Below are positions 28,444 through 37,963 of a DNA stretch of 41,198 nt, piece by piece; position 1 is the stretch's first letter, and every line of letters begins with the position of its first letter. The DNA is from an uncultured Flavobacteriales bacterium (GTDB lineage: Bacteria; Bacteroidota; Bacteroidia; Flavobacteriales_D; Sanyastnellaceae). Made by a program: the position numbers and the translations under genes. Under the pieces are notes generated by a model that worked only from the letters and a program-made list of their open reading frames with translations, was not told the origin of the DNA and did not search any database. The stretch lies in assembly GCA_943787435.1 (NCBI GenBank), contig CALSMK010000032.1:1-41198 (forward strand). Reading direction: 5' to 3'.

Positions 28444-31400
28444 TCACTCGTCACAAGGGTCACCAAAGCTGATCAAGAACTCCAAAAGGTCCGCAGTTGT
28501 GGTCGCACCATCCTGATTCAAGTCTGTCGGACAAGGGCTTTGAAGCGTAAACTCGCAAGTGCCGTTGTCTTGAACTGCGTCTATGCTGTAGTTCTCAGCA
28601 ATGTCATAGGTGCAGCCCCCACAACCTTCAAATACACACTCTTCCAATACTGTGATGTTCGCTTCTGGATTGAAGTTACACGCCACGGCAACGGTACATC
28701 CTGAGACACAATTCGACTCCCCCACCTCGAAGTACACCGCATTGCTCGGAGCTCCGCCGGAAGTGATTCCACTGGAGGCGCCCAGCAAAGTCCACCCCAC
28801 TTCAACCGGAATGACACCACTGCTGACTTCAATGTAGTAGCACCCATCAGCGAGACAGAACTCATCGGTAGCGCTGGTTCCCTCCGGCGTCACCGTAAAT
28901 CCAACGCTGGGCAAACCTCCCTGCTGAATCAAAAGTCCATCCACAGTATACAAGCTGTATTGTGCACCATTCCAACCATCACCAAAATCGTCGGTCATGA
29001 GCAAATTCACGCAATTCGCATAGCAACATGTGCCATCTGAAATCACCGCAGTCTCGTCATAATTGCAAGCCTCGCTGTCTGTACATCCCGCGCAGCTCAA
29101 GTAATCACAAGATCCGTTGTCCGCGGTGGCTGTCGCATCGTAGTTGCACGCCCCAGCATCCACACATCCGCAGACCACACCACCCAATGAGAAGTTGACT
29201 GACCCAATGGCGCCACTGCTCACTTCACCATCAGGGGTTGACAATGACCAGCTGATTTCCTCATCGAAATCACCTCCACCCACGGCCAAGCTATAACAGC
29301 CTTCTACCAGGCAGAACGTATCGAAGCCTTCATCACCACCGAGGAAATTGTCGACGTCCAGAATGAACAGCGCACTGTCCAGGCTGCCACTGAGAAGGGT
29401 GTCCCCAGAAGCATCCATCAAAAAGTACTCCGCCCCATTCCAACCGTCACCAAAGCTGTCAAACATGTCCAGCTTCAGAGGAATTCCATCTTCAAACCCA
29501 ACTGGGCAGGCACAACCAAAGAAGTCACATGAGCCATCCTCAATGTTCGCCGAAGGGTCAAAGTTGCAGGCCACATCATTGGTACACCCCTCCACAGCGG
29601 GAGCGCAGGAAAGTGAAATCTCCACCGTTCCATTGTCATCGGTGATGGGGTCTCCATCGGTGTCTTCTGCTGACACGTATGCGTAATAATGACGACCTGG
29701 CTCAGAAATGAACTGGACCCAAGCGTCATTCTGATCGAAGAAACCACAGTTGATGAAGTCAGACTCTTCAGAAGCGTACACCCCGTCTTCCACAGTCAGA
29801 ACACATTCAAACAAGGCGGGAATTCCTCCAGCGCACACCGCATCACTGACATACAGGTTCAGTTTCGAATCAATGTTGGAGCCGCACAGGCTCAACGTGT
29901 GCAAGTCCCCTGTTCCTTCAAATGTGTACCAGATTCCAGGTCCAGGAACAGGATCACAACCGTTGATCAAGTTGGGGGCGCCCAAGTTGGTGGAACCACC
30001 CGTTGAGCCCGTAGCCGGAATTCCACACTCCAGATCCATAGCGGATCCGCAGGTATTGTTCACAGGAACCACATCCATGTAGTTGCAGGTTCCATCGTCC
30101 ATGGTGGCCGTTGGATCATAGTTTGGTGCCACAGGGTCCATGCAACCGAGGTAAACTCCGTTGGTCAGGAACTGGTACTGCCCACATTCCTCTGGATCGG
30201 TAGTGAAGACATAGAACAGGTAGTCCGTGTTGGATTGCAGCACTGTGAATTGGCTGATCTCTCCCGCACATTGCTCAGACACCAAACATCCCACTTGGGC
30301 TTCAAGGTCTCCACATTCGCCCACATCGAAAATGGCCAGACCAATGTTGGCCGCACTGAGGTTCAACAGGTCAAAGAAGAAGGTCTCGTAATCACCGCTA
30401 TTAAATGTATACCAGACCCCGTAGCTGGTTTGGAATCCTGCCAAAAAGCTCACGTCGACGTTGTCCGGGCTGGAGCAACAAACAGAACCCACGTCAGGCA
30501 CTCCATTTTGCAGACCCAAGGCATTGGAGCAATCGTCGTTGATTGGCGCTCCACTGCTGCAATCCACACATTCCACAGAAAGCAAGAACTCATCACCGCT
30601 GGTGAATTGGCTGAAACGCGTCACATGGATGTAGTAATCTACTCCTTGCTCCACATTAAAAGCGACTTCACTCATGAAGCCTTCTGAGCAACCGTCGTCA
30701 TTGCCGCCCAAGCATTCTAAGTCGTCGAGGTTGCCATCGACAGCCTTGAAGACAAACACCTGAGAGTCAAACAATGGGTTGCCTGCTGGATTGAAAGCGT
30801 CCGTTCCACAAGTGCTGACCACCATCTGCTGGTCGGACTGGGAATTGAACACGTACCAAACCCCAGCCGCATTGATGTCTTGGCCGGAGCACGTCGTGCC
30901 CACCAGGCCCTCTCCATCCACTGCATAAGTCAGTGAACCTGCAATCTGAGCACCACACTGAACTGCTTGAGCGCTGTAAGCGTAGTTGTTGGCTGGGGGA
31001 CACTCACATGAACCATCATCCAGTGTTGCACTGGGGTTGTAGTTCAAGCAGAAGGGGTCCGTACAACCCTGGAAGGTGCATTGCTCTGTTTCACCCACAT
31101 CCAGTCCGTAACTGGACACTTCGTCAGAACCCGTTCCATAGAAGTTGCCGACCACATCCTCGAGGTACCAACCGATGTCATCTGAGTCGTCTCCTGGGGT
31201 GATGTCAAAAAAGTAACATCCCGGCTCAAGGCAGACCAAGTCTGTTCCTGCGGTTTGACCATCGCCGATGCTGGCATTGTCCAACGTTCCCGTCGCAGCA
31301 ATGTCTCCGTCGGTTTCAGAGATGTAGTACACGCCGCCATTCCAACCGTCGCCAAACGAATCGGTCATGCGCACCTCCAAAATCAACTCTCCCGCTGAGC

Positions 31401-32899
31401 AGTAGACGCAGGTTCCATCGTCGATGGAGGCCGAGGGTTGGAAGTTGGTTGCGTTAAAGTCGGTACATCCGTAACAAGAGAAGTTGCAGAACCCACTGTC
31501 GTAGACTGCGTTGGGGCTGAAGTTACAGGCCGTTGGGTCCGTACATCCCACGGGGCAACTCACGTCGCCCAACGTGATTCGGTCGGCTCCACTGATCAGC
31601 TGATCTCCAAATTCCGCCTCATCCAATGAACCGGAATAGACCACGGTTCCATCAAAAGTGGAGAACACATAAATGCCGTTGTTCCATCCATCCTGGAAGC
31701 TGTCGAACATTTCAAAGTTGTAACAACCTTCAGGAAGGCAGACCGCATGCGTGCCGGCACCACCGAAGTCGACCACCGTATTGGTCTCCATGTTTCGGAT
31801 GTTCCAACTGATCTCTCCATCCCAACTTCCGCCGCCCACTTCGAGGAAGAAGAAGTACTCCTCATAACAACATGTCCCGTCGTCATAGATGGCATCACCA
31901 TCGTAATTCACGGCTCCACTCTCGGTGCATCCATAGCAATCGAAGTCACAAATGCCGTTAGAGATCGTGGCTGTTTGATCGTAGTTGCAGGCCGTTGGGT
32001 CCGTGCAACCTTGACAAGACAGGTACTCGCAGCTTCCGTCATTGAAGTTGGCCGTGGGGTCATAGTTACATGCACCCTCAGTGGTGCAACCTGTGTTGAG
32101 ACACTCGGGGTCACCCACGAAAAAGAACTCCTCGATGATGCCTCCAGGGATGCCCGGGCCACCCTCCAGAATCACTTGTCCATTTCGGATGATTTCCCAA
32201 GAAGCCTCCACAGCCAAGTTGTCGAACTCCAATTGAAGGACGTAGCAGTCTTCTGCAAGGCAGACGTCCAAATCCACAGAAGCTCCGTCCGTGAACTCAA
32301 CACTGCCATATTCCAATCCTGACAAATTCCCTACCGTTGCGCTTCCGATGTTCCCTTGACCATCGACCCACCCATTGGAGAACGCGTCGTACAAACGAAT
32401 GGTCACGCAAGCGTCAAAACAGCAACTCCCGTCATCAAAACCAGCTTCAGAATCATAGTTGCACGCGCTTTCGTCCATGCAACCCGGAATGCCGTCGAGT
32501 TCTGTGAGGGTAAAGTTGAACGCCGCAGCTGGCCCCAGCGGTCAGTTCTCCAGAACAGTTGCCTCCACAGATGAAGGGCAAGCTTGTGGTGTTGACCTCA
32601 AAGCTCACGCCACCGTCTCCACCCCCATCCAGTAGAATGATGGTGTAGTTGCCCTGACCGTATTCGCTCAAGTCAATGGTGTAGGTCTGGTTGAATCCGT
32701 TCGTTGGCCAAATGCCACCTTCACTGATGTTGACGATTTGACCATCGGTCAAGCTCGTTACAGCCACACCATACTGGGGTGGCATAGAAGTCTGAGAAGA
32801 GGGGTAATGGACTGCGCCCTCACGCCAAAGGAGAGGAAGAGAGCAGCAGAAAGGAACGACCACGCCAAGGGTGGCGCGACAAGGAAAGCGGAGCATCAT
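28444..32899 (-). CDS. second giant Cys-rich repeat protein (about 1484 aa), frameshifted near 32533
   Basis: Paralogue of the neighbouring giant protein. Frame one (32899 onward) has an export-signal-like start (ATLGVVVPFCCSLPLL) and a first domain ending ICGGNCSGELTAG. The remainder, from about FNFTLTELDGIPGCMDESAC, is in another frame to 28444. Removing one G from the GGGG at 32533-32536 (minus-strand sense) joins them and gives a whole number of codons. Thirteen GCTDxxAxNYxxxAxxDDGSC repeats follow, with FGDGWNGxxY modules and CGxxxxGSTGGST...WYTF modules collinear with the first giant. The end, CPTDLNQDGATTTADLLEFL plus ISFG, matches the other protein's dockerin-like tail. A sequence error is likelier than a true pseudogene because the rest is intact. 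Confidence 0.82.
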
Positions 32900-33068: not shown

Positions 33069-33602
33069 TCACTGCTGAAGCCCAAATTGAGCGAATCGAA
33101 ATTCAGTCAAGACCCACATGGCAGAATGCCAACTTTCGTCGAAAGACTTCACCAACCACCCCGCTTCAGATTCTGCATCCCCTACCGTAGCAGCCAAGGG
33201 GTCCACCACTTCCGTTTGGTCGGTCACCAGTCCAGCCTTCCTCATGGCCCAGAATTCCGATGTACGCGTGGCTTCCCAGCCTTCGGCCTTGGGCTGCCGC
33301 CAAAGCACTTGATGGCGGTCAAACCAATCGATTCCCCGCGACTCGCCTTGTCGCCTCACAAAGGCCACCAATTTGTCGATGCTGCACCCCGTTGCCCCGG
33401 CTTGCCGCTCATCCATGCCGACAACCAGAACTCGATTGTACAGCACTGTGCCCGCCGCATGCAATGCTGATCCATGCGCAGACCAATTGGACAAAAAGGC
33501 CTTCAAGTCTTCCATGAGCAACTCCTGCTCTTGAGGAAGCAAATCGCGATCCGCTGTGTGCACCCACAAGCGTGAATGCCCGGGTAGGTCATCGAACTTC
33601 AT
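33069..33602 (-). CDS. conserved Bacteroidota protein, commonly mislabelled 'ABC transporter ATPase'
   Basis: A 177-aa soluble protein. Seen: N-terminal DLPGHSRLWVHTADRDLLPQ, WSAHGSALHAAGTVLYNRVL, GATGCSIDKLVAF and GIDWFDRHQVL. From memory this matches a small Bacteroidota family (pattern: SRvWvYqadR, W.aHG, SGCSID, g.d.FDR) that databases often call ABC transporter ATPase. No Walker A (GxxxxGKS/T), Walker B or LSGGQ motif is present, so that name is unsupported. Function unknown. It stands alone on the minus strand between the giant gene and the decayed region. Confidence 0.85.
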   Translation of the reverse strand: MKFDDLPGHSRLWVHTADRDLLPQEQELLMEDLKAFLSNWSAHGSALHAAGTVLYNRVLVVGMDERQAGATGCSIDKLVAFVRRQGESRGIDWFDRHQVLWRQPKAEGWEATRTSEFWAMRKAGLVTDQTEVVDPLAATVGDAESEAGWLVKSFDESWHSAMWVLTEFRFAQFGLQQ

Positions 33603-33810
33603 GCCTGAAAATTAACGCCGGGCGCCCAACCGCTCGCACATGGATACCGCCTCTGCCTTTCAACCTGGAGCCCATGTGCTCCGCATCATGCCATCAGCCA
33701 GAAGCCGTGCTGCTTGCCCAATGCGTCAGGTGCCACGTGGTGGCAGCGTCTCCCAAAGCTGTCAGCTCTAAAGTAGGATAGCGAGGATGGGTCGCCTTTT
33801 GGCGCCTGCC

Positions 33811-34283
33811 CTAGGGCGCAGCTTCGCCCACTGACTGTCCAGCCAAAGCGCGCTCGCGCAACCACGGCAGAAGAACCAGCAGCAAAGAAGGCAACGGCGA
33901 TTGCAAAAAGCCCAAGACTTCCCTGGCCACACTGTACCCGGCGTCTGTTTCACCGGCCTGACCGTCAACCAGCCAGAAACAACGCCGTCACCAGCTCCGG
34001 AGGCCGCATAAATGACCATGAGCAGCTTCCATCGCCCTCCCACGCCTGCCGCCCTCAAAAACAAAGCGCATCCAACACAAAAAAGCCCAAGCACTATCGA
34101 CCGCCATCAGCCCCCACTTCGCTCGCACCCATCTCCGTCCGGCCCCAGCCCATGGAACACCTCGTACGTATCGCGGGTAGCATAAAAATTGCGCTGTTGG
34201 TCCGGCATTACGGCGCATATCCGATCCCACCACTCCTTCCGCGTTTCAGTCCATGCATTCAACCTGCGTCTCCCGTTGCACAT
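33811..34283 (-). pseudogene. decayed membrane-protein gene downstream of the exosortase remnant
   Basis: No intact frame, but three successive minus-strand frames read as parts of one protein. First, a soluble part (WTETRKEWWDRI, NFYATRDTYEVFHGLGPDGD). Second, two hydrophobic stretches (LGLFCVGCALFLRAAG and GRWKLLMVIYAAS). Third, a C-terminal part (TALFLAG, then AGYSVAREVLG and FLQSPLPSLLLVLLPWLRER) ending at a TAG at 33811-33813. The frames connect by at least two shifts. Hydrophobic layout and place beside the exosortase remnant recall the small membrane protein that accompanies XrtF in Flavobacteriia, but this identity is only a guess. The 5' limit is uncertain. Confidence 0.5.
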
Positions 34284-34416
34284 CGGCTACGTTGACCGTA
34301 GCTCGTAGAAATCCAGAATAGCGGTTGCACCACATTTTGCCAGATAGTGGTTCAGCTTGACCTTCAGCGTCCTCCTGGACGTAGCCAAAGCCCGACCATG
34401 CATCGCCAACACCGCA

Positions 34417-35050
34417 TTAGCCACCATGGCCGATGCCCAATGGCAGACACTCCTTGCCTTGATCCCTTTGCATGCCTCTGAACTGGCTCTCGGAGGCTGC
34501 CTTCGGACCGCTAAAGCGCACGGACCATAGGTACCACAGCCAGAAGATGAAACCCATAAATCAGCACGGTCCAGGTGTAGTCATGGTTGAATTTGAGCCA
34601 TTGCACCAGGTCGGTTGATATTGGATGATCGCCAAACTCACCACCCTGACCATAGATTGGCCGTATGAATGGCAAGAGAATGCCCGCAAGGGATATACCA
34701 CATTTTCCGGACGCCACGTCCCTGGAAATGCCACTACATGAAAATCGCGAACAAGGCGAACAACACCAGCCCGTCACAAGGGGCCCCGATCTGCAACAGC
34801 CCAACACTCGCTCATTGGCGATCCCTATTTGCCACCTGCAATCCGCACTAGAGCTCACCTCGTAAAGACCGGAACCCAGTAATCGCAGAACGACCTCTGC
34901 AGTACACCATTCACAGGTGAGTGACCATCCCAGGAATCAAATACTCATCTCAGGAGTGTTTGGTCCTTTAAGCCAGTATTGATACAGGACGTACCACAAC
35001 AGGTACCCCACGAAACCAAAACTGAGAAACCGCGTAACGCTGTCGTTCAC
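34417..35050 (-). pseudogene. decayed exosortase-family gene
   Basis: Read across frames on the minus strand, it begins at GTG 35050 with a basic start and first membrane span (RFLSFGFVGYLLWYVLYQYW) and hits a TGA after about 37 codons. A later frame gives LLQIGAPCDGLVLFALFAIF (Cys codon at 34776-34778), the exosortase catalytic-Cys helix, followed by an in-frame TAG, then a degenerate RKMWYIPCGHSLAIHTANL where intact enzymes have RKLWFIP..I..IH..N..R. Another frame gives LKFNHDYTWTVLIYGF (catalytic His region), and a last frame GFIFWLWYLWSVRFSG. The motifs are in the right order over about 200 codons, the normal size. Several stops and shifts, and loss of the Arg region, show a dead gene. 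Confidence 0.75.
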
Positions 35051-35060
35051 CTTGCTGCGC

Positions 35061-35456
35061 TTAGGCGCACTCTATCGCCAATCCTTCACGACGCCTGCGA
35101 ATTCCCAAAACACCTATGCCCATTCCCCTGCAATCAGAAAACCCAATCCTCCATCAATGGGAATACATCCATTTGGGTCACTCGGCTGAACACCATTTGA
35201 AGAAACCCCTTGGGTGTTGTTTTCCCAGAATTCCGTGCAAGGCGTTTGTCCTGCGCCAGCATTATTCCACAAACATTCGCACCAGCCAAATTGCAATCAG
35301 AAGGCTGCAAGATTGGCCTCCACAAGTGGCCAAGTCACCACAAAAAGCACAAGTACAATCGAAACAACAATCAGCAGGTTGACCCTGGGCCATGAGAACT
35401 TCTCCCATTGGAAGGAAAAAACACAAAAAGCAGAGACGAAGAAGGTTCGTACGCAT
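35061..35456 (-). pseudogene. decayed small Cys-rich secreted protein with PID-type C-terminal sorting signal
   Basis: ATG 35456 opens a signal peptide (MRTNLLRLCFLCFFLPMGEV, then LMAQGQP), followed by a Cys-rich stretch (CCFDCTCAFCGDLATCGG). After a frame change comes SDPNGCIPIDGGLGFLIAGG, and after a second one, at the GGGG near 35129, MGIGVLGIRRRREG and a stop at 35061. Put together this is signal peptide, Cys-rich body, then PIDGGLGFLIAGGMGIGVLG plus RRRR: a PID-motif, one hydrophobic span and a basic tail, the tripartite layout of exosortase substrates (I recall the Bacteroidota type being named PID-CTERM). It lies immediately upstream of the exosortase remnant, as a likely substrate. 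Confidence 0.65.
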
Positions 35457-35508
35457 GCTCTAAAAGTACGCCATGGTCAGCAAAACGACGATTCCCCCGA
35501 AGAAGAAA

Positions 35509-35516
35509 TATCTTTG
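35509..35516 (+). promoter_or_regulatory. -7 promoter element for the exopolysaccharide locus
   Basis: TATCTTTG matches TAnnTTTG at all fixed positions and lies 17 bases before the ATG at 35533. It sits just past the divergent start of the decayed PID-signal gene (35456). It supports ATG 35533 over the in-frame ATG at 35473, which would be upstream of transcription start. Confidence 0.65.
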
Positions 35517-35532
35517 TAACAACGCACAGCAG

Positions 35533-37963
35533 ATGTCATCACCGAGAGAAGCAACGACCAACAACAGCATCAAGCAACTGAGGCTGGCCTTGAAGGTGGC
35601 GGCGAAAAACTGGCTGCTTCTGTTGTTGTTGCCCGCCATGGCATACGGTTACGCGCGGTTTGTCACCCACCAACAGCTCGACCAATATGGCGCTCGGGCA
35701 GAGGTGTTGCTGGAGCAAAAGGACGAATACGACAAGGCCCGTGAGCTGATGGAGGGCATGGTCAGCCGTCGATTTCAAAGGCAAGGCCCCGACATCGCCA
35801 ACCAAGTCCGGATTCTCAAAAGCCGCGATTTGGTCGAGCAAAGCTGTTTCCGACCTCAATCACAACGTCACTTATTTCCTTGTTGGACGTGTGAGGGCGC
35901 TTCCAGTGGGGGGACTCAGCGGGGTCACAGTTGAAGCTTTTCCCGAGCAATTCAGCGCTGCTGCTCTTGGGGCAGACTTTGACCTAGAGGTGATCGACGA
36001 CAAAAAATTCGTCCTTTCGGCCCTCTTCAAAGACGGTCGCACCTACAGCCAAGAGCATGTATTTGGATCCCCTCTTCAAACGAGAGACTTCAAGGTCACC
36101 ATCCAAAAAGCCGAAGACGGAAAAGGCACCATTGGCCAGGCCATTGCTCAAGGGCAAAGGTTTCAAGTCCGCACAGACGATCAAATCATCAGCTCCTACC
36201 GAAGCGCTCTCAGCGTGACTGGCGTTGGACAGACCAGCATCTTGAAGATGCAGATCAACAACATTCGGCAAGAGCGGGCCACCGAATTCCTTGACGCGTT
36301 GTCCACCCGGTACATCGAATACTCGACTGCTGCGCGAAAGGAAATCAACGCAAAAACAGACGAGTTCATTGAGCTTCAACTGCTCAAAATCGAAGCCAAC
36401 GTCGACAGCCTTCAAGACATCATTGATCAGCAACGTCAGGAAGCCGAAGTGCTGGACCTGTCTCGAAACGAACAAGCCTATTTCCAGGAGTTGATTCAAC
36501 TGGAAACCCAGCAAGAGGAGCTGCGGCTGAGTCTGCGAAGCCTGAGCGCTCTGGAAGGCTACCTCGCCCGCGGTGTCGAGAACACCAGCATTCCACCGAG
36601 TACATTTTTAACCTCAGACGCCGTCGCTTCAGAGCAGGTCGGACAACTTTATGACTTGCAACTGCAACGGACACAAATGCTGCTCGATGTCACGCCAAGC
36701 AGCTTTCAAGTCAAACGGTTGGACTCTTTGATTTCCACCACGCGGTTCAGTTTGTTTGACTACATCGCATCCACACGTGTGGCGTTGGAAGAAGAAGAGT
36801 CCACACTTGCCGGAAGGATTCAAACCATTGAATCCAAATTGTTTCGGTTGCCCAAGAGCGAGCGAGAAATCCTGGCCATTGAGAGAAGGTTGACCATCAG
36901 CGACAAATTCTATGGCTACCTGCTGGAGCAACGTGCAACCAACCTCATCGCCAGGGCAGCCATCACATCGAACGCCAGCATCATTGAAGCTGCGCGAGGG
37001 ATTGGCATCACAGGACCAGACAAGCCCAAGACCATTCGCAACTATACACTTTTTGGTTTGGCCGTGGCCATAGGCCTGGCCGTTCTCCGGCTTCTTTTGT
37101 TTGAACGCATTGAAAGCGTCAACGAACTCAAAGAGGCGACCTCCCTTCCCGTGAGTGGTGGCGTCCCCCGTTACGAAGACATCAGCGACAAGGAATACGT
37201 ACTGGTGGCCAGCAAGAGTCCTAGGCACCCCACCACAGAAGCATTCAGGGGGTTGAGAACCAACCTTCAATACTTGCTCAACCGAGAAGGTCAGAACACC
37301 ATATTGGTGAGCAGCATGCACCCTGGTGAAGGAAAAACCTTCACGGCCACCAACATGGCAGCCCTTCTGGCCCAAGCCGGGAAACGCACCCTTTTGATTG
37401 ACTTCGACCTGCACAAACCACGGGTACACAAAGCCGTCAACCTGGAGCGCGGAGTGGGACTGAGTGGCTACTTGATCGGAAAAATGCCGTGGATGATGGC
37501 CAAGCAAGAGACCGACATCCCAGGGTTAGACGTCCTCACTTCTGGCCCTGTTCCGCCGAATGCTTCGGAACTGGTGCTCTCCGAACGCACGGATGAGATG
37601 ATTGCTGAGGCCAGAAAGCACTACGACTATGTGGTCATCGACACCCCTCCCATTCTGCTCATCACGGACGCCTTGGTCTTGATGAAGCATGTCGACCGGG
37701 CACTGCTTGTGACCAATGTAAAGCGAGCCAACGTCCGAGGCATGCGTCAACTGGAAGACCTTTTGGGGCAGAACAACATTGAGCACGTGAGCATGGTGCT
37801 CAACGGCATCGTCCCCACACGCTGGCGCTATTATGCTTCCAAGTATGCTTACCAGTACCTCTATGGCTATGGCTACGGAGGCTATGGAAGCTACACCGGG
37901 TATGGCGGCTACGGATATGGCGACAATGCCTACGGCGACGGCGAGGACGACCTATCCACCTGA
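35533..37963 (+). CDS. Wzc-like polysaccharide co-polymerase / BY-kinase (one-base frameshift near 35841)
   Basis: An exopolysaccharide chain-length regulator fused to a bacterial tyrosine kinase, about 809 aa when corrected. Seen: N-terminal membrane span (NWLLLLLLPAMAYGYARFV), a long periplasmic coiled-coil region, a second span near residue 520 (YTLFGLAVAIGLAVLRLLLF), then the kinase: Walker A SSMHPGEGKTFTATN, A' LLIDFDLHKP, B YVVIDTPPILL, and a Tyr/Gly-rich tail with about a dozen tyrosines. The two frames join if one A is removed from CAAAG near 35839-35841 (restoring VSDLNHNVTYFLVGRVRALP). The downstream part alone would start at 35891. Heads the EPS operon; asnB follows after three bases. 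Confidence 0.9.

Follow-up and report, generated by a model that had tools for sequence, protein, structure and literature searches.

Broken reading frames in a flavobacterial exosortase X/PID-CTERM operon: most likely sequencing errors in a metagenome-assembled genome

Exosortase systems of Bacteroidota

The exosortase family carries out processing on the outer side of the inner membrane. The closest described system to the locus analyzed here is exosortase X/PID-CTERM, represented by the NCBIfam models NF046081 (exosortase X, XrtX), NF046080 (PID_CTERM) and NF046082 (XrtX-associated membrane protein), and sequence comparison places the operon in this system: the window (the whole stretch of DNA analyzed, contig C32 at its full length of 41,198 bases) has the same three genes in the same order on one strand, with the substrate gene directly upstream of the exosortase gene and a wzc-type gene of an EPS cluster beside them. 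The locus differs from the described system in that all three frames are broken in the window's assembly, and in that the associated protein (47.2 bits, cut-off 75) and the PID signal (20.4 bits, cut-off 26) of its relative G012 fall under the curated cut-offs. Another Bacteroidota exosortase with an adjacent system-associated protein is found in the XrtF system of Flavobacterium johnsoniae (Fjoh_1448/1449), where deletion of xrtF or of its neighbor led to less surface colonization and biofilm, as stated in an excerpt of the study (PMC10936215). The G012 XrtX scores 74.9 bits against the XrtF model, under the cut-off of 90, and, unlike the XrtF system, XrtX has a single adjacent substrate in genomes with a match to the PID model. 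Among the papers searched, none uses the term 'PID-CTERM', and the three in which 'XrtX' occurs are unrelated.

Among 60 genomes (that of the window included), XrtX was matched at E ≤ 0.001 in 43, with 26 over the cut-off, and PID_CTERM was matched in 32, once in each. Each of the 32 PID matches shares the strand of XrtX and precedes it by 30-110 nt, a clean result in that, where the PID_CTERM model matches, a single substrate stands directly upstream of XrtX; the pairing of exosortase and PID substrate that had been proposed from the window's sequence is thus borne out. The model gives no PID match in eleven genomes that have XrtX, including G012 and that of the window, and since G012 does have the gene, the model misses some substrates. 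With start codons chosen mechanically, the substrates outside the genus (taken from L002-L042) are 67-80 aa long, with a signal peptide and two Cys before PIDGG (except that of L019, 185 aa as cut), and those within the genus are enlarged and Cys-rich (about 100-140 aa, 8-14 Cys).

From its family, the small Cys-rich substrate is predicted to be exported through its signal peptide and kept in the membrane by the PID signal at its C-terminus (motif, hydrophobic helix, and basic tail). By family and position, XrtX would be expected to act on the PID signal of the single substrate next to it; it would cleave the signal, presumably transferring the substrate to a cell-surface anchor. The associated membrane protein may help XrtX, and the EPS neighbors suggest an anchor or a link to the matrix.

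The operon in the window and the extent of its damage

The window is part of a 2.12-Mb draft genome (34 contigs, 78.5% complete). Relatives of its wzc gene are encoded on nine named contigs, all carrying the label of Flavobacteriales metagenome-assembled genomes (MAGs), and the closest relative among the genomes compared is G012 (94% in the wzc protein). The window was compared with G012 over its first 20 kb and over 28.7-38.15 kb; loose local alignments (about 70-85% for nearly all genes, in every genome except G012) were left out. The features of the locus are as follows.

28444..32899, minus strand: large Cys-rich repeat protein gene, as ORFs 32453-32899 (N-terminal part) and 28444-32478 (main)
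33069..33602, minus strand: downstream gene without a family match, its frame interrupted only by a single-base insertion near the 3' end
33811..34467, minus strand: XrtX-associated membrane protein gene (assoc_w_XrtX), from the G012 homologue compared with NF046082 and from alignment
34465..35050, minus strand: exosortase X (xrtX) gene, from the NF046081 match, G012 alignment and motif codons
35061..35456, minus strand: PID-CTERM substrate gene, Cys-rich, with a signal-peptide start at 35456, from sequence, an NF046080 read-through peptide and G012 alignment
35473..37963, plus strand: wzc-type tyrosine kinase/chain-length gene of the EPS cluster, divergent, as two overlapping ORFs
33571..35558, no strand: core of the putative error-rich patch, the window's only run of at least 600 bases that is non-coding by the codon-usage model

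The PID-CTERM gene carries the PID motif PIDGGLGFLIAG and a basic tail near 35150-35060 on the minus strand, with the PIDGG signal near the C-terminus. Its frame is broken many times in the assembly, and alignment to the G012 gene gives 20 indel events without an excess of insertions (9 insertions versus 11 deletions). A peptide read by eye across a frameshift scores 25 bits against PID_CTERM (cut-off 26); the profile gave no match in the raw sequence of the own genome, where the model found no other substrate either. The exosortase pieces APCDGLVLFALFAIF and FNHDYTWTVLIYGF lie on the same strand, and NF046081 matches at 34653-34796 (E=7.1e-9, one stop inside) with 36 bits, under the curated cut-off of 170, while the intact G012 orthologue is over it (175.6). 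Codons for the motifs APCDG (Cys), RVVSL (Arg) and FNHDY (His), which we take to form the catalytic Cys-Arg-His active site, stand at the aligned places, although not all in one frame, and the gene differs from that of G012 by 29 indel events (22 insertions and 7 deletions). The third gene shows 31 or 33 indel events relative to G012, depending on the alignment (24 insertions and 9 deletions over 618 bases); like the G012 homologue, that of G001 (44.3 bits) misses the NF046082 cut-off, and position and order fit.

A sequence-only reading had recognized at 34417-35456 a PID-signal protein and an exosortase, both frameshifted and near EPS genes. Minus-strand reading, the exosortase-family match and alignment to G012 confirm the pair at ~34465-35456, and the wzc-type gene does adjoin the operon; the interval proposed contains the pair but is too narrow, as the third gene and the flanks are damaged too. 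Searches of the own genome with NF046081, PF09721 and PID_CTERM gave no other exosortase or PID protein above cut-off. PF09721 is a weak test here, its best score being 20.4 bits (cut-off 25.7) inside a 498-aa ORF on C1: none of the 17 genus genomes exceeds the cut-off, those with an intact XrtX included, and the draft is 78.5% complete.

Outside the operon, damage becomes sparser in both directions. The downstream gene is 92.5% identical to that of G012. In the large repeat protein gene, single-base insertions relative to G012 put the N-terminal ORF and the main ORF in different frames. Sparser insertions span about 32.5 to 33.7 kb, and all 10 indel events at 31.96-33.66 kb are insertions relative to G012. 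The large repeat protein has some of these in its N-terminal part, and the downstream gene has one at its end. On the other side, wzc is split by a frameshifting single-base insertion near 35.83 kb, and several gap events lie around its start at about 35.5 kb. Farther out, 6 indel events were seen in the window's first 20 kb and none at 35.90-38.15 kb. The EPS neighbors comprise wzc, an asparagine-synthase-like amidotransferase and a glycosyltransferase (67 bits to the XrtY-associated family, cut-off 400). The large repeat protein adjoins the operon in G012, G001 and G008, whose homologues contain repeated Cys-rich GCTD..ACNY units; its main ORF in the window has no Pfam or NCBIfam match. An Rfam search of the window gave no match, and a second broken gene guessed from the ORF list at 17.2-19.3 kb was rejected, the interval consisting of small ordinary genes aligned to G012 over their full length.

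Broken genes elsewhere in the draft genome and the origin of the indels

The broken frames are very probably sequencing errors in a metagenome-assembled genome, an origin that we infer from the comparisons below, and the operon is most likely intact and working. A patch of uncorrected long-read sequence would be centered on xrtX and fade outward over the neighboring genes, and the organism most likely carries an intact operon, as do many relatives. In G012, the PID, XrtX and associated-protein genes all have open frames (the first codons of the PID gene are missing, its 5' end lying at a contig end) and are followed by the same downstream gene and large repeat protein. Uncorrected long-read indels can imitate pseudogenes (PMC12007338), and in lake MAGs from long reads, fragmented ORFs from uncorrected indels were described as common in most of the genomes that had <10x short-read coverage (PMC9426551), as far as the excerpts of these two sources go. 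The indels of the window's draft resemble the errors described there in breaking genes that are intact in relatives, essential ones included, but they are patchy rather than evenly spread. Such patches may have been left where short reads failed to map.

Other parts of the draft served as the deciding control. A frame-tracking codon model, applied to 18 stretches of 20 kb from the own genome and to the window, gave 11 non-coding runs of at least 600 bases, the longest of which is the window's. Seven of the other ten were inspected: one is dnaA, at least two (in L076 and L071) have one open frame and are therefore false alarms of the model, and the rest were judged by eye only. Many single frame switches are ordinary gene borders. 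Three clusters from the model (dnaA, typA, and mutS2) were followed by family search across the 17 genus genomes. The regions with clustered frame switches or no readable frame are listed below.

L074:1-1685: dnaA, confirmed by family search
L082:11300-12600: mutS2, confirmed by family search
L067:15600-16130: typA, confirmed by family search
L071:11300-12500: Cys-rich repeat protein, by eye
L082:1-1594: by eye
L072:4608-5767: by eye

A dnaA match over the cut-off is present in 10 of the 17 genomes; in the own genome, the gene survives as three matches where contig C10 ends (73.6 bits for the best), compared with 525.3-528.5 bits for the ten full-length matches in nine relatives. Against G011, the one relative used for dnaA (G001, G008 and G006 were left out because of an antisense longest ORF), there are 39 insertion and 4 deletion events, one deletion probably being the contig end, with mismatches of 34/14/151 by codon position and 30 indels per kb of the whole dnaA reference. 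The position of this patch at a contig end and the contig breaks at xrtX/wzc would fit patches left where short reads failed to map. One genus genome, G004, has two full-length dnaA matches (C186 and C188), perhaps from mixed strains. Both typA and mutS2 exceed the cut-off in 13 of the 17 genomes, with three matches (C3) and six matches (C18), respectively, in the own genome; no indel count is given for typA, whose alignment begins upstream of the gene. The own mutS2 differs from that of G012 by 9 single-base insertions and 2 single-base deletions (5 indels per kb), at 95.3% identity and with mismatches of 14/2/85. EF-Tu was recognized through matches of the TypA profile as two EF-Tu-like pieces, both on C21. 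Against two relatives, it shows 7-8 indel events; 6-8 of these have a length not divisible by three, and insertions are not in excess (4 to 4, or 4 to 3). In EF-G, there are three indel events, one of them of a length not divisible by three. Disruption is thus not confined to dispensable genes (dnaA, typA, mutS2, EF-Tu, and wzc are all broken). A cell cannot dispense with dnaA and EF-Tu, and because both are nevertheless broken, the draft must contain indel errors.

The substitutions in xrtX also resemble those of living genes. Away from gaps, when the own xrtX is compared with six intact relatives, third positions account for 0.56-0.63 of the mismatches (mean 0.60), on average slightly below the intact pairs (0.55-0.73, mean 0.65, n=15), and the codon-position bias is nearly retained; of eight relatives tried, G003 and G005 drop out, having no xrtX by the motif used. 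Under neutral decay, the third-position share would tend to 0.33. In the third gene, mismatches relative to G012 are distributed 19/15/55 over the codon positions. Indels in the operon reach ~53 per kb and are mostly insertions; genes long freed from selection and carrying this many indels should have lost their codon-position bias. Bacterial genomes are described as deletion-biased in an excerpt of one source (PMC2916853). Both dnaA and mutS2 share the signature of xrtX, namely an excess of insertions together with substitutions as in living genes. What the locus most likely shows is that uncorrected indel patches in long-read MAGs imitate pseudogenized operons, and that a check of essential genes (dnaA and EF-Tu) combined with codon-position bias separates error patches from pseudogenes.

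Several observations stand against sequencing errors. The indel density of the operon is above that of dnaA and mutS2, PID and EF-Tu lack the insertion excess, and the third-position share of xrtX is on average slightly below that of intact pairs. Elsewhere in the draft, several of the stretches to which the codon model pointed are false alarms. Additionally, base divergence from G012 is higher at the operon than in its flanks, which errors do not explain.

Divergence, contig breaks and alternative explanations

Of the third positions, 57/123 in xrtX and 42/69 in PID diverge from G012, compared with 25/163 in the downstream gene and 224/1303 in the large repeat protein. In the first 150-base blocks of the associated gene, this divergence runs 13/27, 11/31, 12/40 and then 8/48; the wzc blocks give 27/98 and 36/100 (about 35.65-36.25 kb), 14-16/100 in the next five and 16/72 in the last, with first and second positions also raised in the second block (10/100 and 11/100). 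The first two wzc blocks together hold a single indel, and their divergence is therefore a real sequence difference rather than error. The peak at 34100-36250 takes in PID, xrtX, the 5' part of the associated gene and a 5' stretch of wzc; per block, about 27-78% of third positions differ there, whereas either side shows about 15-17%. On these alignments, the simplest reading would be that a divergent allele was exchanged in one of the two lineages (the window's or that of G012), and it is conceivable, if tentative, that the sorting operon and its Cys-rich substrate are exchanged between lineages as divergent alleles. If so, pressure from phages or predators on a surface structure would lead one to expect such exchange, and strain diversity may be the reason why assemblies break and polishing fails here.

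Contigs of 10 of the 15 genus genomes counted (G002, G004, G006, G007, G009, and G012-G016) break within 3.3 kb at xrtX/wzc, where 3.1 would be expected (P=4.5e-5, for a stretch picked post hoc). The count excludes G010, where searches recovered no wzc and no downstream gene; it rests on manual assignment of the breaks and on rounded genome sizes and contig numbers. Neither these breaks nor the divergence peak is explained by errors. Both would also accord with a chimeric or misjoined fill, in which a long read derived from a different strain or species spans the patch, so that the allele would be foreign to this organism, an account that is compatible with sequencing errors and is itself unlikely: it draws on the contrast between xrtX and PID and the next gene or 3' wzc, and on the breaks, but gene order is the same as in the genus, and the divergence steps into both flanks, the error-poor wzc included, which recombination explains equally well.

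A true co-decay, in which selection for PID/XrtX was lost and the three operon genes became pseudogenes, the other errors of the draft being unrelated, is highly improbable. It corresponds to the dead system of the sequence-only reading, whose enzyme and only substrate would have been lost together, and it can point to three of three operon genes broken where indels are densest, to the lack of a second exosortase or PID_CTERM substrate above cut-off, and to the 6 of 16 other genus genomes without an XrtX match; the locus in those six is cut by contig ends or not found, and they therefore demonstrate no loss. Against it stand the nearly retained codon-position bias, the insertions outnumbering deletions in xrtX and the third gene, the frameshifts that also affect wzc, the large repeat protein and the downstream gene, the damage fading into unrelated genes on both sides, and the breakage of genes that the cell needs (dnaA, typA, mutS2, and EF-Tu).
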